The position numbers and the translations under genes were made by a program. Below, one piece after another: positions 2,473 to 20,708 of a DNA stretch of 20,708 nt. The stretch is from Bolinopsis microptera (Eukaryota > Ctenophora > Tentaculata > Lobata > Bolinopsidae), in contig NC_087073.1 in NCBI RefSeq assembly GCF_026151205.1, forward strand, positions 22,483,779 through 22,504,486. The letters run 5' to 3'. The notes under the pieces are model-generated. The model saw only the letters and a program-made list of their open reading frames with translations, ran no database searches and was not told the DNA's origin. Numbering within the stretch: position 1 is the first letter of the stretch; each line of letters opens with the position of its first letter.

Positions 2473-5427
2473 TCAAGCTCCAACCTTCCTGAACTCCCAC
2501 TCCCTCTTTCTCGATAACAAGTAAATCCATCTGGAACAGTGGGCTGCCTCTTTCCCACTGTCCCGTACCAGCTTCTTCAGCTCTCTTCCTCTAAAACCAA
2601 TCCTCCTCGCAGCTCTCTCCAAACTCTGCGCAACCACTCCCCTAGCTCCAACTTCGACTGCGGCATTATAACAGCACCAACCTTTCGCCTGAATCTCAGC
2701 CTGCAGACCACTGTATCGGTCGAGTTTGTACTCGTGCGATTCAGCGATCCGCTCTTCAGATGGTACTGTTAGCTCCCACCAAATAACTGTCTTTGCCGAC
2801 CTTGAGAATATCACAAGGTCCGGCCTCAGCCGTGTTTCCACAATCTCACTGGGAAACTTAAGCTGCCCCTCAAGGTCTGACAGCACTATCCAATCCCGAT
2901 ACCCACTCAGGATCCCAAAACCACGACTCTCCTTCCGGTCGTCTGTACCTGCTTTTCTCCTCCCAGCAGGAACAAAATCAATGAACTGTCTTCCATTGCC
3001 GGCCTTGTTCTTATAAGTGTTCACTCGGCGATCACAATGGAAGACAACCTGTTCAGAGATCTGCTTCAGAACCTTGTCGTGCCGCCATCTATACCTTCCT
3101 TGACTAAGGGCCACCTTACACCCAGCCAAAATGTGCTGAATGGTGCCCATCCTCTCCTCACATAACTTGCACTTCCCATCCTCATCTTCACTCCACTTGG
3201 AAACCATAGAGGGGGTTAAGAGGGTGCCGTACACAGCACTTAGCATGAACCCAATAAGTGAGTCACCATACTTAAAAAGTGTATGCCAGCTCAAATCTGT
3301 CTTCATTACGAGCTCTCTCCACTCACCCCACCTGCTCTGCATCTCCAGAGAACCTACTTGCACCTCCCTCTCTCTTTCAATGTTCTCCTTCACTCTCAGC
3401 ATAACCTCCCTCTCTCTTTCCCGCTCATCCATCCTCTCCCAAGGTTTTTTCCAGTCACCAAAACCGATGCCAACTCTTTTTTGAGGTTGCACCATCCCTC
3501 GCACCGATTCACAGACCAAATCTCTTCTGGCCTCTTCCAGTTCTGTCTCAGGCCTCCAAACTCTACCAGAACGAACTTGGGGCTGGACTGCTTTAATCAG
3601 GTCATCCTTAGATGTCTGATAAGATTGCAACAGTCGACACTTCTCTATCTTCCATGTATCTGTCAAGCTGCTCACCGGTAAGGCCACACTGGATGATTGA
3701 CTGAACAGACAAAGACCACTCAGAGTGTGCCCCACCCCTAACCACTTTCTGAGGAAACTGTTGGTATTCTGTTCCCATCTGGTAACTGTTGTGAACGGAA
3801 TATCATAGATGGCAAGAGGCCACTTCAGTTTTGGAAGGACCATGTACTGATATCCCCAGCACTTCTGGAGTCCAGTAAGGGAACTTTCATCGAGTCTCCG
3901 AAGAAAAGTGTTAAGGTCGACCTTGGTTGAGTCAATGACTGATTTGTCATTTCCTTCCACTCTTATCCATCTCCCAAGGAATTTTATCGGCTTCTCTGAC
4001 ACATTCGGAATCACCTCACCACCCAACTGCAAACACAACTCTCTCTCCACCTCCTCCTCTCCTACCACTACCTCCTCAACCCACCTCACAGCCACTCCCT
4101 TCTTCAACACCAGTGCTCTGGACTTGGAGGACTTTAACTTAAATCTGGACCAGTCCACATACTTCTGAAACACATTGAGTAACGTTTGCATATCTTCTGC
4201 ACGTGCGGTGGTCAGACAGCTATCGTCCATAAACAGCTTCAGAGTTGGTATTGGTGTGTCATCCTTGATGTACTCAATGCTTCTCGGAACCTTAGACTTT
4301 AGGTGTTCATGCCCAAGGTTCATGCACAAGACAAACAAGATGACTGATATCACACACCCCATGAAGATTCCTATCTCAAACTGCTGCCAGTCTGATGTCA
4401 CCGTTCTTGAGGAGAACCTTCCGAATACCCCGGAGAAGTACCGTAGGATAATGTTGATAACCTTCTCAGGGACGTTGTAGAAACGGAGGGCCCTGGCAAT
4501 CAGAACATGGGGTACCGCTCCGTAAGCGTTAGCCAGGTCAAGCCATACTACACTCAGATCCTTCTTCTTGACCTTTGCCTCCTTCAGTACCTCCCACATG
4601 GCACCAAAATGCTCCGTGCACCCACGGACGCCTGGCACACCACCCTTCTGTATAGAGAGGTCTACATATCCATTCGAGACAACAAAGCTGGTCAACCTCT
4701 TCGCCAGGATCGCCAAATAGATCTTCCCTTGAATGTTACCCAGGGAAATAGGCCGTCCTGAACTTGGTGAAAAGTCGCCATCCGCCTTTGGGATGTAGAC
4801 ACCCTCGAAATACCTACAATTGTCAGGATATTCTTCTAACTTATATCCAGTTCTTAGCAGGTCCCAGAGATTCTTGGCAATACCAGGACATCTCTTGTAC
4901 ACTGTGTACGGGATCCCGTTGTTACCCGGGGCACTCTTGCTCCTTGCCTTCTTTACAACCTCCTCAAACTCCTTCTTGGATACCGTTGTGAGGTCAAAGG
5001 CAACAGAGGGTTCAGGAGCACACTCAGGCAGACCCTCAAGTATACCAAGGGGCTGCTGCCGGGCTGGATCTCCGTATGTTCTGGCCAAGTGATCATCTAG
5101 CTCCTCCTTTGAACACTTAAGCTCACCCACTGGACTTGGATTTAGCACTCCCTTGACTGTCTTGAAAGGGTCGCGTCCAAAATCCCCTCTAACTCTCCTT
5201 ATCTCTCTCTGCTTCTGTCTCCTTTTCTCAGCCCTCCTCAACTTCATCAAACGACCAGCCAACACTCTCAATAATGCTTCATAACCATCCTTCTCTATCT
5301 CACTCCTTGCCTTCCTTTTCTTCCTCCTCAACTGCTTCCTCTTTCCAATCAGGCTGTCAATCTCCTCCTTTCGTCTGTTCTTAAAGCTCATGGACTTCTT
5401 TCCACTACCAGCACCTACTTCAACAAT
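2473..5427 (-). CDS. LINE R polyprotein, main part: reverse transcriptase + CCHC + restriction-like endonuclease
   Basis: About 984 codons without interruption. Residue numbers count from the ATG at 5442, which lies in the tail of the inserted J copy; the R frame really enters at 5427. Residues 20-90 are basic and Arg/Lys-rich. RT follows: SAPGNNGIPY (170-179), motif A VVWLDLANAYGAVPH (298-312, catalytic D302), motif B-like GCVISVILF (362-370) and FMDD (404-407). A zinc knuckle, C758-x2-C761-x8-H770-x4-C775, precedes QGRYRWRHD. The endonuclease core is RPD (873-875) and WELT (889-892). Related elements, as I recall them, have YMDD and GCxISPILF; here they are F and V, which may weaken activity. 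The protein would nick target DNA and prime reverse transcription there. The frame is continuous with 7533-7975 across the J insertion. Confidence 0.85.
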   Translation of the reverse strand: MVEVGAGSGKKSMSFKNRRKEEIDSLIGKRKQLRRKKRKARSEIEKDGYEALLRVLAGRLMKLRRAEKRRQKQREIRRVRGDFGRDPFKTVKGVLNPSPVGELKCSKEELDDHLARTYGDPARQQPLGILEGLPECAPEPSVAFDLTTVSKKEFEEVVKKARSKSAPGNNGIPYTVYKRCPGIAKNLWDLLRTGYKLEEYPDNCRYFEGVYIPKADGDFSPSSGRPISLGNIQGKIYLAILAKRLTSFVVSNGYVDLSIQKGGVPGVRGCTEHFGAMWEVLKEAKVKKKDLSVVWLDLANAYGAVPHVLIARALRFYNVPEKVINIILRYFSGVFGRFSSRTVTSDWQQFEIGIFMGCVISVILFVLCMNLGHEHLKSKVPRSIEYIKDDTPIPTLKLFMDDSCLTTARAEDMQTLLNVFQKYVDWSRFKLKSSKSRALVLKKGVAVRWVEEVVVGEEEVERELCLQLGGEVIPNVSEKPIKFLGRWIRVEGNDKSVIDSTKVDLNTFLRRLDESSLTGLQKCWGYQYMVLPKLKWPLAIYDIPFTTVTRWEQNTNSFLRKWLGVGHTLSGLCLFSQSSSVALPVSSLTDTWKIEKCRLLQSYQTSKDDLIKAVQPQVRSGRVWRPETELEEARRDLVCESVRGMVQPQKRVGIGFGDWKKPWERMDEREREREVMLRVKENIEREREVQVGSLEMQSRWGEWRELVMKTDLSWHTLFKYGDSLIGFMLSAVYGTLLTPSMVSKWSEDEDGKCKLCEERMGTIQHILAGCKVALSQGRYRWRHDKVLKQISEQVVFHCDRRVNTYKNKAGNGRQFIDFVPAGRRKAGTDDRKESRGFGILSGYRDWIVLSDLEGQLKFPSEIVETRLRPDLVIFSRSAKTVIWWELTVPSEERIAESHEYKLDRYSGLQAEIQAKGWCCYNAAVEVGARGVVAQSLERAARRIGFRGRELKKLVRDSGKEAAHCSRWIYLLSRKREWEFRKVGA
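5420..5427. repeat. 8-bp target site duplication of inserted LINE J, left copy
   Basis: TCAACAAT, identical to 7533-7540. On the minus strand it reads ATTGTTGA and supplies codons Ile-Val plus two bases, in the same R reading frame at both copies. This shows that the R frame was intact when J inserted. Confidence 0.8.
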
Positions 5428-7532
5428 TAAACAAATAATCAATTAAACAAATAATCAAAGTTTTAGCACATTTTACAGCATAAAATTTAAACAAATGAAA
5501 ACATATAATGCTCTTAGTTGTAAATGGCCGTTTGTTCTGAGCTGTATGATTTTTTGACAATCAACTAGCGGGGCAAGGAATGTACTGGCTGGTAGCTTTT
5601 GTACACACCATAACGCTAGTCTGGTTGATTAGTGACCAAATTAGAGGCGTTGATAGGAAGGCATTATAATTTGTGGGTGTAAGAGGGAATATTTGGCATG
5701 CATTATTCTAGCAGCTATTTTGTAACAAATGGTCTTTACGATTATTAAGGACAGAAAGTATTTTGGGTGTCTAAGTGGGGGCCGGGGGTTTAAATTTAAG
5801 GGAGAAAAAGAAATGAATATTGGGTTATAATATTAATCATAGATGTCAACCCTGATATAACTATTGTACTAAAAATTTGATCATAATGCTTAGGGTCTTT
5901 ATTATAATTCAAATTGGATACAAAAATAGGATCTCTTTACACTACACTTACTCACTCACACATCACATTTAACTTGACAGAGGAATACGCTGGCAGAGTA
6001 AGTCTATTTGGTCATGAAATTTTGGAGGTCAGGTGGAATCCCTGCAGGAGCCTACGAAAATTTAAGGTTACAAATATCAAAGTCTTTATTTGTCCAGTCA
6101 TACACGGCATGACAATGCTGGTTGGAAAGTAGTGAAGATTTCAGTTTGGATTTCAGGCAAGAAATACTAACAGAACAATCAAAGATTTTAAGGTTAGGGG
6201 TTATTATATTCCATATTTTCGTTGACCTCGTGTTATGGTTGTCTGGGGGATCCGGTTTATTGATAATAAGCATTGGTTTCCTGGAAGAACGAGAATACTC
6301 TTCGTACATAGACATAGGAGTAGAAAACTTCATGATCTTGAATAATTCTATGTAGCTATGGTAAGTATAAAGATTTTGTACAGTAAGTATCTCGTTGTTT
6401 TTAAACAGAGGTTTAGTGTGCTCCTTTTTATAAAATTTACTATCAAGTTTCTGGTCAGTAAATGGTCTGGTTCGAACACACGTTTTGAATTTATCCAGGT
6501 AGGCTGCTCTATCACCAAACAAGACCCTCAGACAGTACTTCTGTGCAGTGAATATTGAGCTTATACGATTTTTGGCTGCCCCACCCCATGCTGATATGCA
6601 GTACGACAGATGGGATTCAAAAAGAGTGTAGTATAACTGTCTGTGGAGAAATTCTGGGAGGGAGCAGCGTAGACGACACAGAGTTGAGGTGGCATGGTTA
6701 AGCTTTCGTTTTAGAGCTATTATATGTTCTTCCCATGTTAGATTTTCGTCAATGACGACTCCTAAAAATCTAGCTGACGTTACTCTTTTGATGGGGTAGT
6801 TGTCTATATTCATTATGAATTCTTCTTCAACGTTTGCTTCAGTACGTGACTTAGGTCTAAAGTGGATGTAGCAGCATTTTGACATGTTTATGTGAAGCTT
6901 GTTAGCCCGCATGTATGTTTGAAGGTTCGAAAGTAGGGTGTTGCTGCGTTCATATGCTTCTTGTGCAGTTTTACCAACAACAAATATGTTGGTGTCATCC
7001 GCAAAGGTGACAAACGATCCCAAGCTAGAGCTATTAGAGATATCATTTATGTAAAGTAGGAATAAAAGGGGTCCGAGAATTGACCCCTGGGGAACCCCAA
7101 ATTTTATTGGAAGTAGGTCGGACTTTTCTCCTACAACATCAGTGTACTGAAATCGATTAGTTAGGTAGCTCTTGATCAGATCGTTTGCCACGCCACGGAT
7201 GCCATACCTTTCAAGTTTGGTAAGTAATGTTGAGTGATCTATAGTATCGAAGGCTTTGCTGAGGTCGATGAATATGCCTAACACATGGTGCTTCAATTTG
7301 ATGTGCTTAGATATGAGGTCAACAGAGTAGTTTACTGCATGGGAGGTTGAGTGCGATTGCCTGAAACCAAACTGAGTCTTAGATATTATTCCCTGAGAGC
7401 TGACAAACGAATAAATCCTAGAATATATGATTTTCTCAAATATTTTGCCAAATATGGACAAGGTGGATATGGGACGGTAGTTTTCTATTTCTTCTGGATT
7501 ACCTTTTTTGAAGACGGGTGTGATTCTGCCAG
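5428..7532 (-). mobile_element. LINE family J copy, 5'-truncated, inserted in LINE R
   Basis: A 2105-bp minus-strand insertion flanked by TCAACAAT duplications. Its 5' end (7532) is truncated just upstream of RT motif 1; its 3' end is a tandem tail of two 16-bp units, TAAACAAATAATCAAT (5428-5443) and a one-base variant (5444-5459). Between the tail and the stop codon (6052) is a 3' UTR of about 590 bp. It contains two blocks shared with the other J copies: TTTTAGCACATTTTACAG (from 5461; compare 17978 and 16632) and a GGGGCAA-GGA-TGT block (from 5570; compare 16752). It is the youngest element of the nest. Confidence 0.85.
6052..7532 (-). CDS. LINE J reverse transcriptase (5'-truncated ORF2)
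   Basis: About 493 residues belong to J; the open frame starts a few codons earlier in R-derived sequence. Motifs, numbered from the start of the frame (7557): ITPVFKKGN (12-20), YRPIS (27-31), GFRQSHST (64-71), motif A FIDLSKAFDTIDH (96-108, D98), motif B GVPQGSILGPLLF (154-166), FADD (185-188), FLGVVIDENLTW (264-275), then the C-terminal block TLFESHLSYCISAW and STKIWN near 445-450. This is a typical Jockey/CR1-group RT; I cannot fix the clade. The upstream endonuclease and ORF1 are missing, so the copy cannot move by itself. The coding part has no stops or frameshifts, which fits a recent insertion. Confidence 0.85.
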
Positions 7533-7540
7533 TCAACAAT
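7533..7540. repeat. 8-bp target site duplication of inserted LINE J, right copy
   Basis: TCAACAAT, matching 5420-5427, directly next to the 5' end of the J copy. Confidence 0.8.
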
Positions 7541-7975
7541 ACCAAACAACTTGACACCCTCGTCGTACACTACATCACAATGACTCACCATCTTCTCTTG
7601 AAATGGTTTCCGCTTGAGAACCACTGCAAACCTCTCTACCACACACTCATCAAACTTACTCCATCGACCATCATTGGACGCCGGCCACTTCACCTTGTCT
7701 CTTTTGCTAGCAGGTGGTTCGACTGAAATTCTCTTGTCAAGGAGAGCCCGGATATCTCTAGCACTGTGGTTGTTTTCCTGGCTAGATACCTCCGTCGAAG
7801 TTACAGGCATACTGCCAGCCGACGACTCCCCTTCCCAAATGCACTTCATTCGACCCCGATGGATATTCCTGCCTTTGACTGTGTCAAACCGACGTCCACA
7901 TACACAGATACAACTCTGTCCCTCTCCTGCTTCAACCGTCGAGGACTCTCGACTACCTAAGTTTGTCCACTTGAT
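7533..7975 (-). CDS. LINE R polyprotein, N-terminal part: zinc finger and pre-RT region
   Basis: An open minus frame from 7975 (after TAA at 7976-7978) to the J insertion. No ATG precedes the zinc-finger motif; the first ATG is at 7849, inside it. The motif is CICVCGRRF...IHRGRMKC: a cysteine cluster at 7898-7912 and an H-x5-C end at about 7841-7861. It matches the layout of the N-terminal DNA-binding finger of R2-type LINEs. Further on, KWPASNDGRWSKFDECV and a region ending KLFG correspond to the stretch that precedes the basic region of this LINE type. The codon phase at 7540 is the same as at 5427, so the two pieces formed one frame of about 1129 codons. Start-codon use is unclear; some R2 elements are thought to be translated without a canonical AUG. 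Confidence 0.75.
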
Positions 7976-8441: not shown

Positions 8442-9384
8442 TCTAATCTAATTGCAGCGGCACACGCTTACTATTACTATCATGATTGTACTATAGACTG
8501 ATAATCTCTCAAATCGATTTTGACGCATTTAACCATTTGTTGTAATGTTTTTAAATACTAAATATCTAAATTTATAAAATTTTTAATCAGAACGAATTAA
8601 TTAATATTTGACAATTCATTCGATAGTTGATTATATTGATATTGTTATTATTGAATGAAGCTAACTCTAGACATACAGTAAATAATATTACTTCTTTTAA
8701 CAAAGGGACTTGGAGTATAAACGATCAAGTTTGCATAAATTTCTATCCAACGAAGAATTCAGGAGGCAAAGGTGGGTGTGTAAACTTTATTGATTGAAAT
8801 AAATTTTCGTGCACATACAGAATGAATGGTTAATAATTTAATATATATGTAGACCAAGCTCTGTGCACGGGATGCTTCCTGGAAGAATCCAGTTCTTTTA
8901 GCGGGGCACCCTACCTAAAGCCAAATTGAGATATAATAATCATATTCCTAGAGAAATAATCAGAAATCGAATACCAATCAAATAATATGATATATATGAG
9001 TAGTAACCATATTTACTATGCAAAATGCCCCAACCACATAGTGTAAATTTATATAGAATTCAAATTCCATATCATCATTAAACCTCAATACCTAGTCAAT
9101 ATAATAGCCCAAGCAAAATTAAATAACTTCTTATATACCTTACTGTCATACTACAAATTAATTAAACATTTGAAATCTGTTGACCAGAGAATAAATTTCT
9201 AAGCCTAATGCAAGTGAAATAATTTAGATGCAATAATGAATGCCTAATGTGAGTATCATTTGTCAATGTCCTTGTAAAAAAGTCTGTACAAGAGATATGA
9301 GTAACTAATATAGAAGAAAAATGAGTAACTAATATAGAAGAAAAAACAGGAAGTTGTCGTCTGTTGTAAAATAAATAAAATATC
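8442..9384. other. AT-rich gene-free region with a short tandem repeat
   Basis: No open frame or RNA gene is recognisable. The left part follows the old J copy's stop codon, but I could not find the J 3' UTR blocks in it, so that copy is either truncated or of another subfamily. A perfect 24-bp tandem duplication (ATGAGTAACTAATATAGAAG plus AAAA) lies at 9297-9344. The right part could belong to the 3' UTR of LINE A. Confidence 0.4.
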
Positions 9385-9720
9385 TAGAATATAAATTAGA
9401 ATATAAAATAACATTCAGTCAATGTGTCGTCAATAAACTGTACAATTATCAAATGTTAAAACTGGGTGATACAGTCACCAAAAAAAAATACTAAGTATGA
9501 TAAGTTAATAAATTAAATGTGGTCTATAAAACTACCACTAAGTATAATAGGTCAATAAATTAAAAGTGGTTTATAAAACTACCACTGTGGGAACCCCTTC
9601 TCCAGTTAAAACATGTCAGTCATGTGCAAAATCAATCAGAATGGTAAGGTGGTAAAAAAGGGAATATCTTTTCGATACATCAATTATATATGCCTCAGAT
9701 TTAAAAGAATTAGAAGTTAC
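9385..9720 (-). other. Probable 3' UTR of LINE A with tandem duplications
   Basis: This lies downstream of the ORF2 stop on the minus strand. A 47-bp unit occurs twice, at 9493-9539 and 9540-9586, with a few differences; both end TATAAAACTACCACT. A 12-bp unit, TAGAATATAAAT, occurs twice at 9385-9408 and could be the 3' tail, because LINEs of the CR1/L2 group often end in short tandem repeats. I found no flanking target duplication, so the 3' limit of the element is a guess. Confidence 0.4.
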
Positions 9721-12696
9721 TTAGTTATCGGCGACTATGATTGCAGTGTAAAATTTGTCATATGAATTGTCGACGGTATAATTAGGGTCTGTTGTAATAG
9801 ATGATAGTAGCTGTTTCTTATACGAATCACTAAAGCTTTTAACATCGGGCAGATTTCGTAGATCTGTTGGAACATTATTCCAACATTTTGCCCCCAAGTA
9901 TTGAAAGTTTTTATGTGATGTTGATCTATTGACATAAAGGTTGCAGCTTTCGCCGCTCCTACTACCTCCTGATATGTAACTAAATTTGTTCATAAAGTTT
10001 GTAGGACAATTGTCATGGATGATTCTAAACATATAATTTGACAGATGGAGTTGTCGTCTAAGATGGAGTGGTAACCATTTCATGTCTCTATAAACATTAA
10101 GGCTGCTCTCTGTTTTTGGAACGTTGAGAGCTATTTTGGCTACCTTTTTGTACAGAGTGTCAAGTTCAGCAAGTTTTGTCTTGCCAGCTCTACAATAGAT
10201 CGTGTCTAAATAATCGAATTGTGGCAACATGAGTGCATTGGCAAACATTTTCCTATATTTAATGGGTAGCAGTGCTTTGCTTCTATACATGGCACCAATT
10301 CTCTTCATGACCTTCCTAATAATATAATCTACATGGCTTTTGAAGTTTAATTTACTATCTAGAATGAGGCCAAGATATTTTGTCTCTTTGCACTCCTTGA
10401 TTGTGAAAGTTACCTCATTACAATCAATGGTTATTTCATCATGTTGGTCAACAGAATCAAACAATAGGAATTCAGTCTTCTTTTCATTGAGTGATAATTT
10501 ATTAACACTGAGCCATTTAAAGATTGTCATAAGTTCTATTTTCATGTTTATAAATGTGCTTCTGCAGGTTTGATCAAAGAATAGTGCACCATCATCTGCA
10601 AATAGAAAGGGCTTAGATAGGTTACAGGCATAAATGATGTCATTTATGAAGATACTAAATAATATAGGCCCAATGATGCTTCCTTGTGGTACACCACTCA
10701 GAACTTCTAAAAATGAGCTTAGATTGCCATTGATCCTAGTGCATTGATATCTACAAGATAAGAAGTTCTTAAACCAGGTTAAAGCAATGCCACCAATTCC
10801 ATAATATGCCAATTTTTGAAGCAATATTTCATGATTCACTGTGTCAAAGGCCTTCTTAAGATCAAGAAAGATGATTCCTGGTTTATAAGACTTAGATTTA
10901 CTCATATATATTTCGTCCATCAGATCGTACATCAGATAAGTTGTGGAGTGATTTTTCCGAAAGCCATATTGATGCCGGATGAAAAGTTTGTTCTCTTCCA
11001 TGTAATCAGTGAGTTGCTTGCCGACAAAGTATTCTATAAGTTTTCCTACAAGTGGAAGGATGGATATTGGCCTGTAATTATTAGGATCATCTTTCATTCC
11101 TGCCTTATGGATGGGAGTTACTCTAGCTTTTTTACAAAGGGTTGGTACAACACCTGTATTAAGGCTCAGATTGACAATGTGGGTCAGTGGCTCAACTATG
11201 TGTGGTACAGCTTGCTTAAGTAAAAATAGAGGCACATTGTCATATGAGGCCTTGTCATTCTTGAGCGTTTCGACATACATTAGGATATCAGTTTCATTTA
11301 TTTCTTGGAATCTATCAAATGAGATATTAGAAGTTCTAGGAGGTAAAAAATCAGTAAAACTAACTCTTTCAATATTGGGGGCCTGATTTTGTAATCTTGA
11401 TCCAACATTTGCAAAATGAAAGTTAAATAGCTCAGGATCATTCTCATTGATAGTTTGACAATTAGTTGTACCAGGGGTCATATTTGATGCCAGTTTGATA
11501 GTTTTCCATATCCCTTTAAGATCATTCTTGGCACTTTTAACTTGTAGATCATCGATTACATTAGCCTTTTTGCAGGTTTTAGCTAATTTATTTCTAATAT
11601 TTCTCTGAATCTTGTAGCAATCCCAGGCCTCATTACACTTTATACATTTGCTACATGTACCACATTTATTGCAATTTCCATTGTCTCTCTTATCCTTCTT
11701 TTTACGGAATTTCTTTAGAAGAAAATGTGTATGATTAATGGCATATAAAAGTTCAGTAGAAGGTTTATGTATGAACTTTTCATGCCTTTCTATGGTCTTG
11801 CAAGGGAAGAAGGTTGCATATGCCTGTTCAATATGATGACAAAGGCCAGCTGTGATAGCTTCAACATCTGTACTTTCCAATAGTGGACTGTAATCAGAAC
11901 AGGTGTCTAGATAGTCTAAGAATTGTTTAACATTACGTTTACAATGATTTCTAATTTCAACCTTCTCAAATTTAGGAGCTATAGGTACTTTACAATCTAT
12001 CTCACACATAATAGCTTGATGATCTCCAATACGTTCATCAAGAACAGAAGATTGGACAAAATCTGCATAACAGTTAGTGAATATTACATCAATAGTAGTC
12101 TGGGTAACATTGTCTCCACGTTTAGCAACTCTAGTTATCCCTTGAATGGTTTGAACTAGATTGTAACATCTCAAGGTCATATCTAATTTTTTGTACTGGG
12201 TGGATGAGATATTATTCTGGTCAATGTTTATATCCCCAATCCAGATAACCTTTTTCCCATTCAATTTTTTCATGCAAAAATGAATGTATTCAATAAAGTT
12301 ATCAACACTGCAATAATTTCCAGAGCGATAGAAGCAGCAAACATTGATCTTGCTATTCTTAAGCTTCACCCATAATGCTTCAATGTTATCAAGCTTACTA
12401 TCCATAACTAATTCTGTGTAAGCTAGTTTTTTGTTTATCATTAAGCCACAACCACCCCTAGAACTGTTTGGCCTGTCGCATCGCATAAGGTTGAAGGAGG
12501 AAGGAATATTTATGGTGTCTGTGTCAATAGTATCATTAAGATTCATCTCATTTAGGGAAAGTATGTCTAATTTATGATCTCTAATAAGTTGGGAAAGTTC
12601 ATTACTTTTAGCTAAATTGAGAAGCCCTCCTTGAATGTTACAATGACCAATGCAGAGGTTGTGAAACCTATCAGCTGCATTATTAAAATTTGTCAT
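9721..12696 (-). CDS. LINE A ORF2: APE endonuclease + reverse transcriptase
   Basis: 991 residues, no interruption. The N-terminal domain (about 12-235) is an apurinic-type endonuclease: HCNIQG (N20), LSLNEMNL (E50), IWIGDINID (D155), TIDVIFTN (D203), IGDHQ (D225, H226). RT spans about 520-790: VTPIHKAG, YRPISILP (541-548), YGFRKNHST, motif A IFLDLKKAFDTVNH (D612), motif B GVPQGSIIGPILF (668-680), FADD (699-702), YLGLILDSKL (774-783). The C-terminal region ends with WNNVPTDLRNLPDVKSF, a block typical of the CR1/L2-like group. Between endonuclease and RT is a cysteine cluster (C342, C345, C348, C351, C354, C360) that could bind zinc. The ATG lies 155 nt after the ORF1 stop. Expected role: nicking chromosomal DNA and copying element RNA at the nick. 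All expected catalytic residues are present. Confidence 0.9.
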   Translation of the reverse strand: MTNFNNAADRFHNLCIGHCNIQGGLLNLAKSNELSQLIRDHKLDILSLNEMNLNDTIDTDTINIPSSFNLMRCDRPNSSRGGCGLMINKKLAYTELVMDSKLDNIEALWVKLKNSKINVCCFYRSGNYCSVDNFIEYIHFCMKKLNGKKVIWIGDINIDQNNISSTQYKKLDMTLRCYNLVQTIQGITRVAKRGDNVTQTTIDVIFTNCYADFVQSSVLDERIGDHQAIMCEIDCKVPIAPKFEKVEIRNHCKRNVKQFLDYLDTCSDYSPLLESTDVEAITAGLCHHIEQAYATFFPCKTIERHEKFIHKPSTELLYAINHTHFLLKKFRKKKDKRDNGNCNKCGTCSKCIKCNEAWDCYKIQRNIRNKLAKTCKKANVIDDLQVKSAKNDLKGIWKTIKLASNMTPGTTNCQTINENDPELFNFHFANVGSRLQNQAPNIERVSFTDFLPPRTSNISFDRFQEINETDILMYVETLKNDKASYDNVPLFLLKQAVPHIVEPLTHIVNLSLNTGVVPTLCKKARVTPIHKAGMKDDPNNYRPISILPLVGKLIEYFVGKQLTDYMEENKLFIRHQYGFRKNHSTTYLMYDLMDEIYMSKSKSYKPGIIFLDLKKAFDTVNHEILLQKLAYYGIGGIALTWFKNFLSCRYQCTRINGNLSSFLEVLSGVPQGSIIGPILFSIFINDIIYACNLSKPFLFADDGALFFDQTCRSTFINMKIELMTIFKWLSVNKLSLNEKKTEFLLFDSVDQHDEITIDCNEVTFTIKECKETKYLGLILDSKLNFKSHVDYIIRKVMKRIGAMYRSKALLPIKYRKMFANALMLPQFDYLDTIYCRAGKTKLAELDTLYKKVAKIALNVPKTESSLNVYRDMKWLPLHLRRQLHLSNYMFRIIHDNCPTNFMNKFSYISGGSRSGESCNLYVNRSTSHKNFQYLGAKCWNNVPTDLRNLPDVKSFSDSYKKQLLSSITTDPNYTVDNSYDKFYTAIIVADN
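11617..11673 (-). other. Cysteine-rich module between endonuclease and RT of LINE A
   Basis: Residues 342-360 of ORF2 carry six cysteines, five of them exactly three residues apart (C-x2-C repeated four times), then x5 and a sixth. A lysine-rich stretch (KKFRKKKDKR) lies just before. It may be a zinc-binding nucleic-acid contact module. I do not know it as a standard part of CR1/L2-type ORF2 proteins, where the zinc knuckle, when present, is usually C-terminal. Confidence 0.55.
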
Positions 12697-12851
12697 CTTG
12701 TGAATCTTATTAATTCACAATGGAATGAATAAAAGTTGTAAAGTTGTGTTTAAACTAAAAAACAGAATAAAAGCAGGTTGTATTTGTCTGGATGTCGTAC
12801 TGTAAAAATAAAACTGATGGTAGGAGTGTTATGTCAGTATTCAGCAGTATT

Positions 12852-14504
12852 CTAATGGTGTGCATGATACTTCAAGTGCCTTGCTAATTTAACTATGCCA
12901 TAATCATTGAGATGGACATTATCCTCTCCATAACTACTAAAAAATGACGATTTTCTAAAGCCTTTCTTATCACTAAACAAGAAACGATTTGTCTCGGTTG
13001 AGAGCAGTTTTACATAGGTGTATTTTCTTTGCAGATTTGATATACACTCATTGATATCAGTTATAACCTTGTTTCTGGAGAAACTCTCCCGAGGTAATAA
13101 GTTAACAATTTTAATATCAGCTCCAGGTGCCCACTTGTGAAGGAAAAGTACAAGTTTTTCAATACAATTGTTTGTAAAGTCAAGAGCTCTAGCATCACCA
13201 GAAAAACTATCAGGGCACAGAAGTTTAGTCCTCATGTTGCGAGGGCTGTTCAGGATAGAGTCCACGTCATTTGTACCACACATAAGTACAATGCTTTTCA
13301 CATTATTGGTATTAAGAGTGTCTTTTCTTACATCTGATTGAAACCGTTCATTGATTGCATTGGCTGTGGCACCAGGGTAGCTGAATACATGTGCCTCATG
13401 ATGTTTGGACGATAGCTTTTCTCCCTCTAATTTGGAGAACATACTAGAGCTAATGTAGACACACAAAGATTTACCAGAATGTTCTATTGATCTAGTCTTA
13501 GGGGCCGAGGGTTCAGTGTTCTTAACTTGACTGGAAACATCAGACAGAGTAGATAAGGTTGCGCTGCCATCAATTAGGCGCAGAGTAATGCTTATTCTCA
13601 TGGTTTCAGACTTGTCCTGGATGAGGCTGTGTTCAAAGCTGGTCTGGGATTGTCTGGTCATATTCATTATGTCACCATGGGAGAGGGTGAGGTCAGCAAT
13701 ATGAGCTCTAAGTTTGGATCTGAAGCTTAGGACTCTAGTAGCCCCTAAAGAGATGGTGGAGATCATGGAGCCTGGTGAAATTGACCTCTCGTCATCCGAG
13801 TGAAAGGGAATTCCTTGCTGACCATTTCTATACTTGGTAATCATAGCACTATTGAATTTCAATTTTGGGAACTGTGAGCGTAAGCGTTCTAGAATAGACT
13901 TTAGGTATGGATTGTCTGCTACTGGCCTTGTGTTATGAAAGCCTCCATTGTAAGCGTAGGGAAAGTCCCCGTAATATGCAACTGCCCTATTCTCAAACTT
14001 ATGAGTATAGTGGGTTTCTATATCTAACTTGGCAGTGTCAACAAACTGAAAAACTCCTCGACTCAAATCTTGGTATGGATTGATAGAGTTGCTCACATCA
14101 TTGTCACCATTTACAGAGTGTTTGGGATTTTCCAAATTGATAATTTCTGCTGAATGTTCACTGTCTTCTGCTAATTTGGATAGCTCTTGGGTTAACTCAG
14201 AAACAAGATGCGAGGATGACCTATTACTGAGGGGAACATTGATAGACTGTTCACAGTGATCAGGTACCTGGGGCAACACAGGGATAAATGAACCATCGCT
14301 GAGGGGAACTTTGAGTGCACTGTCACTTTCTGATAATTGTTTATAGAGAAAAGAAATTTGCCGACGAAGACTATCATTCTCTCTTAATAGAGTTAAACAA
14401 TTTGAACATTTATCAGTAGGACAAGAGCCGTTGCTGGGGAATTTAACAGAATTCCCTCGATATCTCAGATTGTAATGTCTTGAGCCAACTGGTATTCTAG
14501 ACAT
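12852..14504 (-). CDS. LINE A ORF1: Cys/coiled-coil + AlkB-like dioxygenase + SGNH esterase
   Basis: 550 residues, no interruption. N-terminus: cysteines C28, C33, C36, then a leucine-rich helix (about 38-57) that could be a coiled coil. Residues about 172-310 match the AlkB/ALKBH2 layout: AVAYYGDFPYAYNG, ITKYRNGQQGIPFHSDDE with iron ligands H235 and D237, PGSMISTISLGA, SHGDIMNM, third ligand H292, and R303-x5-R309, which in AlkB contacts 2-oxoglutarate. Residues about 345-545 match an SGNH hydrolase: ISSSMF (possible nucleophile S354), SYPGA (G378), CGTND (G410, N412), DNVHLNDYG (D528, H531). Esterase domains are known in CR1/L2 ORF1 proteins; I am not aware of AlkB joined to one. AlkB enzymes remove alkyl groups from DNA or RNA bases, so a role in protecting element RNA or cDNA is conceivable. 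Both active sites look intact; activity is untested. Confidence 0.88.
   Translation of the reverse strand: MSRIPVGSRHYNLRYRGNSVKFPSNGSCPTDKCSNCLTLLRENDSLRRQISFLYKQLSESDSALKVPLSDGSFIPVLPQVPDHCEQSINVPLSNRSSSHLVSELTQELSKLAEDSEHSAEIINLENPKHSVNGDNDVSNSINPYQDLSRGVFQFVDTAKLDIETHYTHKFENRAVAYYGDFPYAYNGGFHNTRPVADNPYLKSILERLRSQFPKLKFNSAMITKYRNGQQGIPFHSDDERSISPGSMISTISLGATRVLSFRSKLRAHIADLTLSHGDIMNMTRQSQTSFEHSLIQDKSETMRISITLRLIDGSATLSTLSDVSSQVKNTEPSAPKTRSIEHSGKSLCVYISSSMFSKLEGEKLSSKHHEAHVFSYPGATANAINERFQSDVRKDTLNTNNVKSIVLMCGTNDVDSILNSPRNMRTKLLCPDSFSGDARALDFTNNCIEKLVLFLHKWAPGADIKIVNLLPRESFSRNKVITDINECISNLQRKYTYVKLLSTETNRFLFSDKKGFRKSSFFSSYGEDNVHLNDYGIVKLARHLKYHAHH
12870..13472 (-). other. SGNH/GDSL-type esterase domain in ORF1
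   Basis: Codons for residues 345-545 of ORF1. Block I is ISSSMFSKL in place of the usual GDS; block II glycine is in SYPGA; block III is CGTND; block V is DNVH followed by LNDYG. Such domains in CR1 and zebrafish L2 ORF1 proteins have been described as esterases. Their role in transposition is not settled. Confidence 0.75.
13575..13991 (-). other. AlkB-like 2OG-Fe(II) dioxygenase domain in ORF1
   Basis: Codons for residues 172-310 of ORF1. The signature is H-x-D (HSD, 235-237) followed by D-E-R and P-G-S, a central S-L-G-A strand, H292, and R-x5-R (303-309). The HxDDER...PGS spacing resembles human ALKBH2 (HRDDER...PGS) more than bacterial AlkB. All residues expected for iron and 2-oxoglutarate binding are present. 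Confidence 0.85.
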
Positions 14505-15123
14505 AGTTTATCACAAAAAGATGCTACTGTTCGAAATTTAGTTAATGATTACAGTACCTTTGTAGCACTCCGGAGGATAAGGATAAGTGATGTCTGATAA
14601 TCTTTAGGTGATAGATGGGAGTAAACTGCTTTAAAAACCGATGTCTGATAGTCCTTAGGATGTCTTTAAGATAACTTTATCGTGCAACAACCATTTACAT
14701 TGACATACAACCTGTAATGGTCGTTACATTTACCGAGGCATTAGTTCCCACTGGGGGTCCTCAATAAATGTAATAGATTTGTAGTGTTGTAATTAGTTAA
14801 AAAGTTTTATGGTCTGCACTCTCCGATCCTGTATCACCCTGGATTATTTTCGGCGTATCTTTGTATATATACCTTCTAGTCAATCTCTTGCTACTCCAAG
14901 TCCCCTAGGATATCTGATCTAAAGTTTGTGCTAGTTATATAATATATGAAATATATTTTTGTCTGCTTTAATTGATACTAAATAAAATTGTTGTTTTTTT
15001 TTTATTTATTGCTGTGTAAATTTAATTCTAATTCTAATTCTAATAATGGAGGTGCTGCAAATTTTAATACTGTTCTAATCACAGTAGGTATATGTATTAA
15101 TATTTGGTAAGTACTAAGTAATT
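14505..15123. other. 5' leader of LINE A and upstream region of the kinesin gene
   Basis: The first part is A's 5' UTR on the minus strand; its 5' limit is not visible. GATGTCTGATA occurs twice near 14589 and 14640. Further right an AATTCT hexamer is repeated three times (15024-15041), after an AATAAA and a T-rich run near 14981-15005, which may be the 3' tail of another short + strand retroelement. No TATA-like promoter element can be assigned with confidence to the kinesin gene starting at 15124. Confidence 0.4.
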
Positions 15124-19919: not shown

Positions 19920-20601
19920 AACGCAAATCAAAAGAGAAGAAAGAGTCAACCCCTGAACCCACACCCCCCAATAGCACATATTTCAACCGGGCAACGTTTT
20001 TACGTCGCAGTTTTAACAAAACAAAAGGCAATGATAACGAGCCCTCCTTACAGAGATCCACTAAACAAAGCATGTCCTCCCGAAATATGACGTCGCGTGA
20101 GAGAAACCGCTGTGCATCATCGCAACCTGCTCTTTCTAACAAGAAAATATCGTCTTCCGCTTCAGCTGAAAACATAAACAACCTCAAGTTAAATAACGGA
20201 AGCCACCTACTCCGCAAGTCTGCTAGCGGAAAAACTGTGTCGTATCTGGGGAAAACAGAATCAAACCCTCCCATTCGTACCCGGTCAAAAACCACTTCAG
20301 TATTTACCAGCTCGACAGACAAAGCAAGACCAACATCAGCGTCTAAAGTTTCAGATAAGATAAAAGTTTGTGTTCGAAAACGTCCCCTGAACCGAAGAGA
20401 GAAAACCCGGAACGAAGAGGATGTTGTAGAGATCCCGTCTGGCAATCAGTGCTTTGTGTATGAGAGTAAAACATCTGTTGATTTATCAAAGTTCGTACAG
20501 AAGCACTGTTACATGTTTGATAGGGCTTTTGGTGAGGCAGCGGATAATGAGCTGGTTTACTGCAACACAGCTAAACCCCTCGTAGACTGGGTCTTCCAAG
20601 G
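19920..20601 (+). CDS. KIF24: KIF24-like kinesin, exon 3 (linker and start of motor domain)
   Basis: After a pyrimidine-rich acceptor ending CAG at 19919, the frame stays open to the donor AAGG|GTAAGT (GT at 20602-20603). With exons 1 and 2 it gives 296 residues so far. The linker is Ser/Thr/Lys/Arg-rich and low in complexity. The motor begins near residue 217 with KIKVCVRKRPLNRREK, then DVVEIP, VDLSKFVQKHCYMFDRAFGE and NELVYCNTAKPLVDWVFQG, just before the expected P-loop (GQTGSGKT), which must be in the next exon. The VCVRKRPL strand and the FDRAF...VY...TAKPLV order are of the kinesin-13 type. Vertebrate KIF24 has SAM then motor at nearly this spacing; it is reported to depolymerise microtubules at centrioles and to restrain ciliogenesis. 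An ATG at 20072 could serve as an internal start if exons 1-2 are skipped. Confidence 0.88.
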
Positions 20602-20708
20602 GTAAGTAAACCTCTCGTAGACTGGGTCTTTCAAGGGTAAGTAAACCCCTCGTAGACTGGGTCTTCCAAGGGTAAGTAAACCCCTTGTAGACTGGGTCTT
20701 CCAAGGGT
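20573..20708 (+). repeat. 35-bp tandem array duplicating the exon 3 end and its splice donor
   Basis: Four units with a period of exactly 35 bp: 20573-20607, 20608-20642, 20643-20677 and 20678-20708 (the last cut by the window edge). Units differ by one or two bases (CCCCTCG, CCTCTCG, CCCCTTG; TTCC or TTTC). Each contains the last codons of the exon (AAACCC...TTCCAAGG) and the donor GGTAAGT (the fourth is truncated after GGGT). The first unit overlaps coding sequence, so the array grew from the exon-intron border. Reading past the first donor meets TAA at once (20603-20605), so use of a later donor would truncate the protein. Confidence 0.92.

Follow-up and report, generated by a model that had tools for sequence, protein, structure and literature searches.

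Zebrafish ZfL2-1 is a CR1/L2 LINE whose type IV (esterase) ORF1 combines a coiled coil with an SGNH esterase at the C-terminus and lies upstream of an APE–RT ORF2 (PMC4120745, PMC3905857), an arrangement that recurs, with a predicted coiled-coil-like stretch, in the locus described below. Binding of lipids and membranes has been proposed for the ZfL2-1 ORF1 esterase (PMC3905857). The published ORF1 types are without AlkB, neither that word nor ‘dioxygenase’ occurring in the main texts of these two papers (PMC4120745, PMC3905857). The esterase module is likewise common to unrelated types of retroelement, for bdelloid rotifer LTR elements carry a GDSL/SGNH esterase as ORF3; AlkB has no occurrence in the available text of that study (PMC5408684). 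Retrotransposons bearing an AlkB-type domain are known from orchids, where the AlkB (2-ODD) ORF of Ty3/Gypsy elements demethylates m6A RNA in vitro (PMC9289625). What appears from the sequences to be new here is an esterase-ORF1 LINE that has acquired an AlkB enzyme, and a Helitron in which both domains likewise occur. A literature search of limited extent, largely of titles and abstract openings, found no LINE or Helitron with AlkB, and so far bears out the preliminary description, which knew of no LINE ORF1 joining AlkB to SGNH. To our knowledge, base-modifying enzymes are rare on transposons.

The window, by which we mean the whole stretch of 20,708 nucleotides analysed, contains a LINE of about 6015 bp at 8789..14803. 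All its parts lie on the minus strand, with the 5′ end at 14803 and the 3′ end at 8789; these limits are the points where most full-length copies elsewhere cease to align. Alignment of copies from other sites delimits a 5′ UTR (14505..14803) and a 3′ UTR (8789..9720). Between them lie ORF1 (12852..14504, 550 residues and a stop) and, downstream of it, ORF2 (9721..12696, 991 residues). The preliminary description had reported an uninterrupted 550-residue frame upstream of an APE/RT ORF2. Both are there: ORF1 is a single unbroken frame, its strand is minus, and the plus-strand reading of 12852..14504 is full of stops, while Pfam recognises the endonuclease (PF03372, E 3.6e-7) and the reverse transcriptase (PF00078, E 6.3e-36) of ORF2. 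Could a frame as long as ORF1 be open by chance? Order-1 shuffling of the window, repeated 100 times, gave no first-ATG frame longer than 190 residues, against the 550 of ORF1, which rules chance out. With APE and RT in ORF2 and near-identical copies interspersed in the genome, the element is a LINE. Between APE and RT, ORF2 has a Cys-rich patch, CNKCGTCSKCIKC, and a similar patch occurs in the ORF2 of another family (L058). An Rfam search at the gathering score gave no match.

Three other features of the window may be recorded. At 2473-5442 (minus strand) there is a reverse transcriptase frame of 989 residues with a zf-RVT match below cut-off, which we take to be ‘R2-like’. A second RT frame, at 6052-7557 (minus strand), lacks the upstream part of a LINE; its RT is 69% identical to that of L053, an ORF2 from a LINE with PHD finger, AlkB and SGNH. 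Lastly, a kinesin-like frame begins at 20072 (plus strand), and its exon end with the splice-donor-like GGTAAGT recurs in a 35-bp tandem repeat of 3.9 copies at 20572-20708.

ORF1 opens with a cysteine motif, CPTDKCSNC, and a predicted helical, coiled-coil-like stretch (residues 28-60, 14325..14423); the motif was read in the translation and the helices (30-58) come from a low-confidence model alone. There follows an AlkB-type 2OG-Fe(II) dioxygenase domain at residues 160-312 (13569..14027). PF13532 matches residues 183-309 with E 7.7e-19 and 69.1 bits, against a curated cut-off of 31.2. In the preliminary description its DDER...PGS stretch is called ALKBH2-like. A PDB sequence search with ORF1 returns ALKBH2 (best E 4e-13) and ALKBH3 (best E 2.5e-11), and no other chain with E below 0.1. 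The AlkB equivalog model TIGR00568 scores 17.5 bits, so far below its cut-off of 231 that the domain is no close AlkB orthologue. In a single-sequence, low-confidence model of ORF1 the AlkB part has a pLDDT of 23-40 and no beta-strands. APOBEC chains head the Foldseek ranking for both low-confidence models, and were treated as noise. Phage and plasmid tblastn searches with AlkB gave 3, 73 and 15 records, 22-33% identical among the matches listed, and no lead; nor did ORF1 queries against viral contigs and prokaryote genomes or an ORF2 query against viral contigs. Plasmid tblastn with ORF2 gave RT matches, mostly group II introns, at 23-28% identity among those listed.

Does the domain retain what a dioxygenase needs? 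The signature listed in the preliminary description was found residue by residue: HSDDE from 235, PGS at 244, H292, R303 and R309. The iron ligands H235-x-D237, followed by D238 and E239 (13794..13802), the third iron ligand H292 (13629..13631) and the two arginines of R303-x5-R309 (13578..13598) are the same in 17/17 copies of the element. In a residue table aligned with MAFFT-localpair, HxD, H, R and R are intact in 28/28 AlkB rows, of which 14 are element rows, each with the complete H-x-D...H...R-x5-R. In the block R-x-N-L-T-F-R, Ser replaces Asn in 14/14 element rows and also in three bacterial or phage rows. The preliminary description overlooked one departure from the AlkB consensus. 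This concerns the motif N-x-Y, which we take to be N159/Y161 in ALKBH2 numbering and whose Asn is presumably a 2OG-contacting residue. The Tyr (Tyr225 in the window) is present in 28/28 rows, and the Asn in 24, among them all 14 cellular and phage rows; in its place the window (Thr223), L040 and L048 have Thr, and L044 has Ser. Since Thr stands where the cellular and phage rows have Asn, binding of 2OG by the window AlkB is not certain, and this reading of the alignment leaves a real doubt on the activity of the window family's own enzyme.

This doubt bears on the view that AlkB was retained merely as a nucleic-acid binder in place of the RRM found in other ORF1 proteins, with no need for catalysis. 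Besides Thr223, the finding of no RRM within reporting limits in the proteins scanned speaks for such a role, as does the orchid AlkB protein, which binds RNA even if catalytically dead (PMC9289625). A mere binder, however, would be expected to lose some of the five iron and arginine residues, and these are invariant across the diverged element rows, the other rows compared and the copies alike; a pure binding role is for this reason quite unlikely.

The remainder of ORF1, residues 343-550 (12855..13478), is an SGNH esterase domain with S354, G378, N412, D528 and H531. The SGNH blocks named in the preliminary description were recovered, with SSSM at 352, CGTND at 409 and DNVH at 528; block I thus reads SSS instead of GDS. 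The Pfam GDSL model PF13472 falls short of its cut-off of 32.9 bits both with whole ORF1 (22.5 bits, E 1.7e-4) and with residues 338-550 alone (24.4 bits, E 4.7e-5). The five residues, from blocks I, II, III and V, are nevertheless unchanged in 17/17 copies, and in 12 aligned SGNH proteins the Ser, the block-III Asn and the His are present in 12/12 and the Asp in 11/12, L048 lacking it. SGNH folds head the VIA lists for the esterase part, from low-confidence models. With this part as query, the PDB by sequence gave no match, nor did plasmid and phage tblastn at E 10.

How widespread is this LINE? A search of the genome (264.65 Mb, 232 contigs) with the ORF1 protein gave 82 matches, 79 of 813 candidates being scored, so that the counts are lower bounds. 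There are at least 23 full-length copies (residues 1-550, the window included) at 95-100% identity, 22 of them stop-free, and a sister family at 65-67% identity has at least 16 copies, all stop-free. In 20 stretches compared with the window copy, alignments of 5.7-6.0 kb are 97.1-99.5% identical; one stretch (L036) belongs to another family, and some copies are 5′-shortened or interrupted by other sequence. Near the element ends, strings of 6-7 nt that may be target-site duplications are shared in 13/21 stretches and none of 6 or more in eight, counts that include stretches without the 3′ end and stand without a chance baseline. From the near-identity of the copies, most of them stop-free, we infer that the locus is a young LINE, mobile until recently.

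Seventeen copies, the window and 16 of the 20 stretches, were compared codon by codon, changes being counted against the commonest codon without a tree. Left out were L023 and L035 (one-codon length change), L037 (frameshift) and L036. ORF1 is stop-free in 16 of the 17, L038 being the exception, and both ORFs are intact in 11. The AlkB part has 6 nonsynonymous and 17 synonymous changes (pN/pS 0.10), the SGNH part 15 and 10 (0.40) and the N-terminus 21 and 9 (0.66). Under neutrality, at a chosen transition weight of 2, about 75% of changes should be nonsynonymous; AlkB departs from this with p 1.6e-6, SGNH with p 0.10 and the N-terminus with p 0.68. AlkB differs from the N-terminus and SGNH together with p 0.002, and from SGNH alone with p 0.02. 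The comparison with the sister family (L040) follows the same order, with dN of 0.10 for AlkB, 0.23 for SGNH and 0.56 for the N-terminus; dN/dS is rough here (0.08 for AlkB), synonymous sites being near or at saturation. We conclude that, of the parts of ORF1, AlkB is under the strongest constraint and that purifying selection acts on it. Taken with the intact iron and arginine residues, this constraint suggests an enzyme that is probably both active and required.

A PF13532 search of the genome gave at least 151 AlkB matches (587 candidates, 150 scored) in frames of 142 to 3388 residues, a single one with internal stops among the matches listed; the families described here are a sample of these. 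AlkB followed by SGNH is found in ORF1s of 537, 611, 646 and 417 residues (L040, L046, L017 and L036, respectively) and in one of 599 residues (L048). Three further ORF1s (L043, L044, L047) have an N-terminal PHD finger, below cut-off in Pfam, before AlkB and SGNH. The SGNH assignment comes from motif alignment in L044, which misses the E limit of 0.05, and in L043, where PF00657 alone (E 0.007) is within it. A more distant LINE (L045/L057) has AlkB and, beyond a long linker, an SGNH at the C-terminus that was recognised by motif only. Pfam detects RT downstream in all six cases scanned (L036; L052 for L017; L053 for L043; L054 for L044; L055 for L047; L056 for L048), with an APE match in five of the six, some below cut-off; the endonuclease and RT that go with L046 (L058) and L045 (L057) were recognised by reading the translations. 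The clade names used for these LINEs (CR1/L2, L2-like) are labels that we assume, the RT tree being confined to sequences of this genome.

The 646 family (L017 with L052) and the 611 family (L046 with L058) are 98.5% identical in a stretch of 2987 bp that begins close to the ORF2 start, whereas on the ORF1 side blastn aligns only 1.2 kb, at 72%. This module swap indicates that ORF1 is exchanged between LINEs. Two further arrangements were seen. Directly upstream of the AlkB-SGNH LINE of L036 lies a second, different AlkB-bearing frame of 491 residues with coiled-coil-like Pfam matches (L036:1-1473). In the ORF2 of the 599 family (L056:1-2622, minus strand) APE and RT are preceded by a PHD finger at the very start (E 2.6e-4 with PF00628, under the cut-off).

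Is the enzyme confined to LINEs? L015:223-3402 and L039:1-4197 together form one frame of 2459 residues in which SGNH (E 4.2e-7, 31.1 bits against the cut-off of 32.9) comes first, then AlkB (2.1e-22), both ahead of a Rep domain and a PIF1 helicase; DUF6570 (5.3e-14) is also present. The L039 part holds Helitron_like_N (PF14214, 4e-23) and PIF1 (6.2e-21), and with Rep and PIF1 in one protein the frame is that of a Helitron. Compared by position, strand and frame length, the AlkB list and that for Helitron_like_N (41 matches) have at least six frames in common (2225, 2459, 3226, 3321, 3366 and 3388 residues). The full domain scan covers the 2459-residue frame, from which alone SGNH is known, and the 3388-residue frame (L050) was read around AlkB. 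A LINE nested in a Helitron is ruled out, for the six frames agree in place, strand and length between the AlkB and Rep lists, the domain order being taken from one.

The AlkB tree was built from a MAFFT-auto alignment of 28 rows, of which 14, one per family sampled, are from elements; near copies (L014, L016, L018, L041, L042, L049 and other ‘551’ copies) were omitted. A branch with support 100/99 sets apart twelve element rows, comprising LINE ORF1s, the upstream piece of L036 and both Helitrons. On the other side a stand-alone ALKBH2-like frame (L011), which we take to be a host gene, groups with human ALKBH2 (97/93); the bacterial and phage rows and the host-like L012 and L013 are on this cellular side as well. 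In L013 the AlkB frame (296 aa) is followed on the same strand by a separate SGNH frame. The remaining element pair, L045/L051, has a long branch and is placed with the cellular rows, and a tree uniting all 14 element rows is not rejected (p-AU 0.323). The deep branches suggest that AlkB has long resided in the elements and was not copied from the present host gene. Might the window nevertheless owe its AlkB to a host transcript, captured by one LINE copy not long ago and carried along since without a role? Such an accident would fit the GC content at third positions, which is 0.46 in the AlkB part against 0.32-0.36 in the rest of the ORFs. It is exceedingly improbable, being already contradicted by the tree and the selection tests: AlkB occurs in many families and two classes of transposable element, on deep branches and under purifying selection, and L011 lies beyond the well-supported branch.

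What, then, might the LINE do with the enzyme? The preliminary description had named, as possible roles, repair or demethylation of alkylated RNA template or cDNA and the removal of a host base mark. We lean, by a little, towards ORF1 demethylating the element's own RNA and/or cDNA so that translation and copying proceed, with the esterase binding lipids and membranes. ORF1p, with its cysteine and coiled-coil-like start, AlkB and SGNH, would self-associate and coat the element RNA. AlkB would then oxidatively strip methyl groups from this RNA and/or the first-strand cDNA, its likeliest targets being N1-methyl-A and N3-methyl-C because ALKBH2 and ALKBH3 are the nearest solved relatives. These two bases are the substrates of ALKBH2 and ALKBH3, known as lesion-repair enzymes, and both stop reverse transcriptases. 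Once demethylated, the RNA or cDNA could be translated and copied. The SGNH esterase would probably bind lipids or membranes, by analogy with the proposal for the ORF1 esterase of ZfL2-1.

Two considerations complicate the demethylation of the element's own nucleic acids. Helitrons have no RNA template, and the presence of AlkB in them argues that repairing templates for reverse transcription is at most part of its function; LINEs and Helitrons have mRNA and single-stranded DNA in common, which leaves removal of a host mark and repair of single strands equally open. Moreover, ALKBH5, an m6A eraser, is reported to suppress L1 in human cells (PMC7873242), and RNA demethylation could thus harm a LINE. 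Might AlkB instead erase an RNA or DNA methyl mark that lets the host recognise or silence the transcripts or insertions of elements, LINEs and Helitrons sharing the enzyme since they face the same silencing? A retroelement and a rolling-circle DNA transposon of the same genome do carry AlkBs of one branch; both make mRNA and only one has an RNA template. The authors of the orchid study propose a role in host epitranscriptomic control (PMC9289625). Yet the nearest solved relatives are ALKBH2 and ALKBH3 and not m6A erasers, and we think this counter-defence rather improbable.

Leaving demethylation of the LINE's own RNA and cDNA as the favoured reading for the window, we may ask what the wider distribution implies. 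The occurrence of AlkB and SGNH in several jumping-gene lineages of one genome suggests that such elements carry their own nucleic-acid demethylase. Tentatively, and with some reserve, we entertain the possibility that the two domains are a portable two-enzyme kit that passes, within one lineage, between unrelated transposable elements (L2-like, PHD-type and distant LINEs, and Helitrons) and lets elements of both kinds, RNA- and DNA-based, clear methyl marks or lesions from the nucleic acids that are their own, as epitranscriptomic counter-defence or as repair. Recurrent AlkB in RNA-copying and rolling-circle elements of one genome, strongly constrained where tested, brings within reach of experiment the question whether host and transposon confront each other over nucleic-acid methylation. 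It also supplies a naturally occurring set of divergent AlkB enzymes in fusion with a putative RNA-particle protein.

How does this AlkB compare with those already described? With ALKBH2, ALKBH3 and bacterial AlkB it has in common the H-x-D...H...R-x5-R, HxDDE and FNS blocks, at 23-35% identity to 11 rows; those, however, are stand-alone enzymes, whereas the window AlkB is fused in ORF1 and has Thr223 for Asn. The orchid elements resemble the present ones in being retrotransposons with an AlkB-type domain. But in that case a plant LTR element carries AlkB in an extra, separate ORF, ALKBH5/9B-like and with no esterase mentioned in the text consulted (PMC9289625), whereas in the genome of the window AlkB belongs to a LINE ORF1 and to a Helitron, has its best matches in ALKBH2 and ALKBH3, and is accompanied by SGNH.
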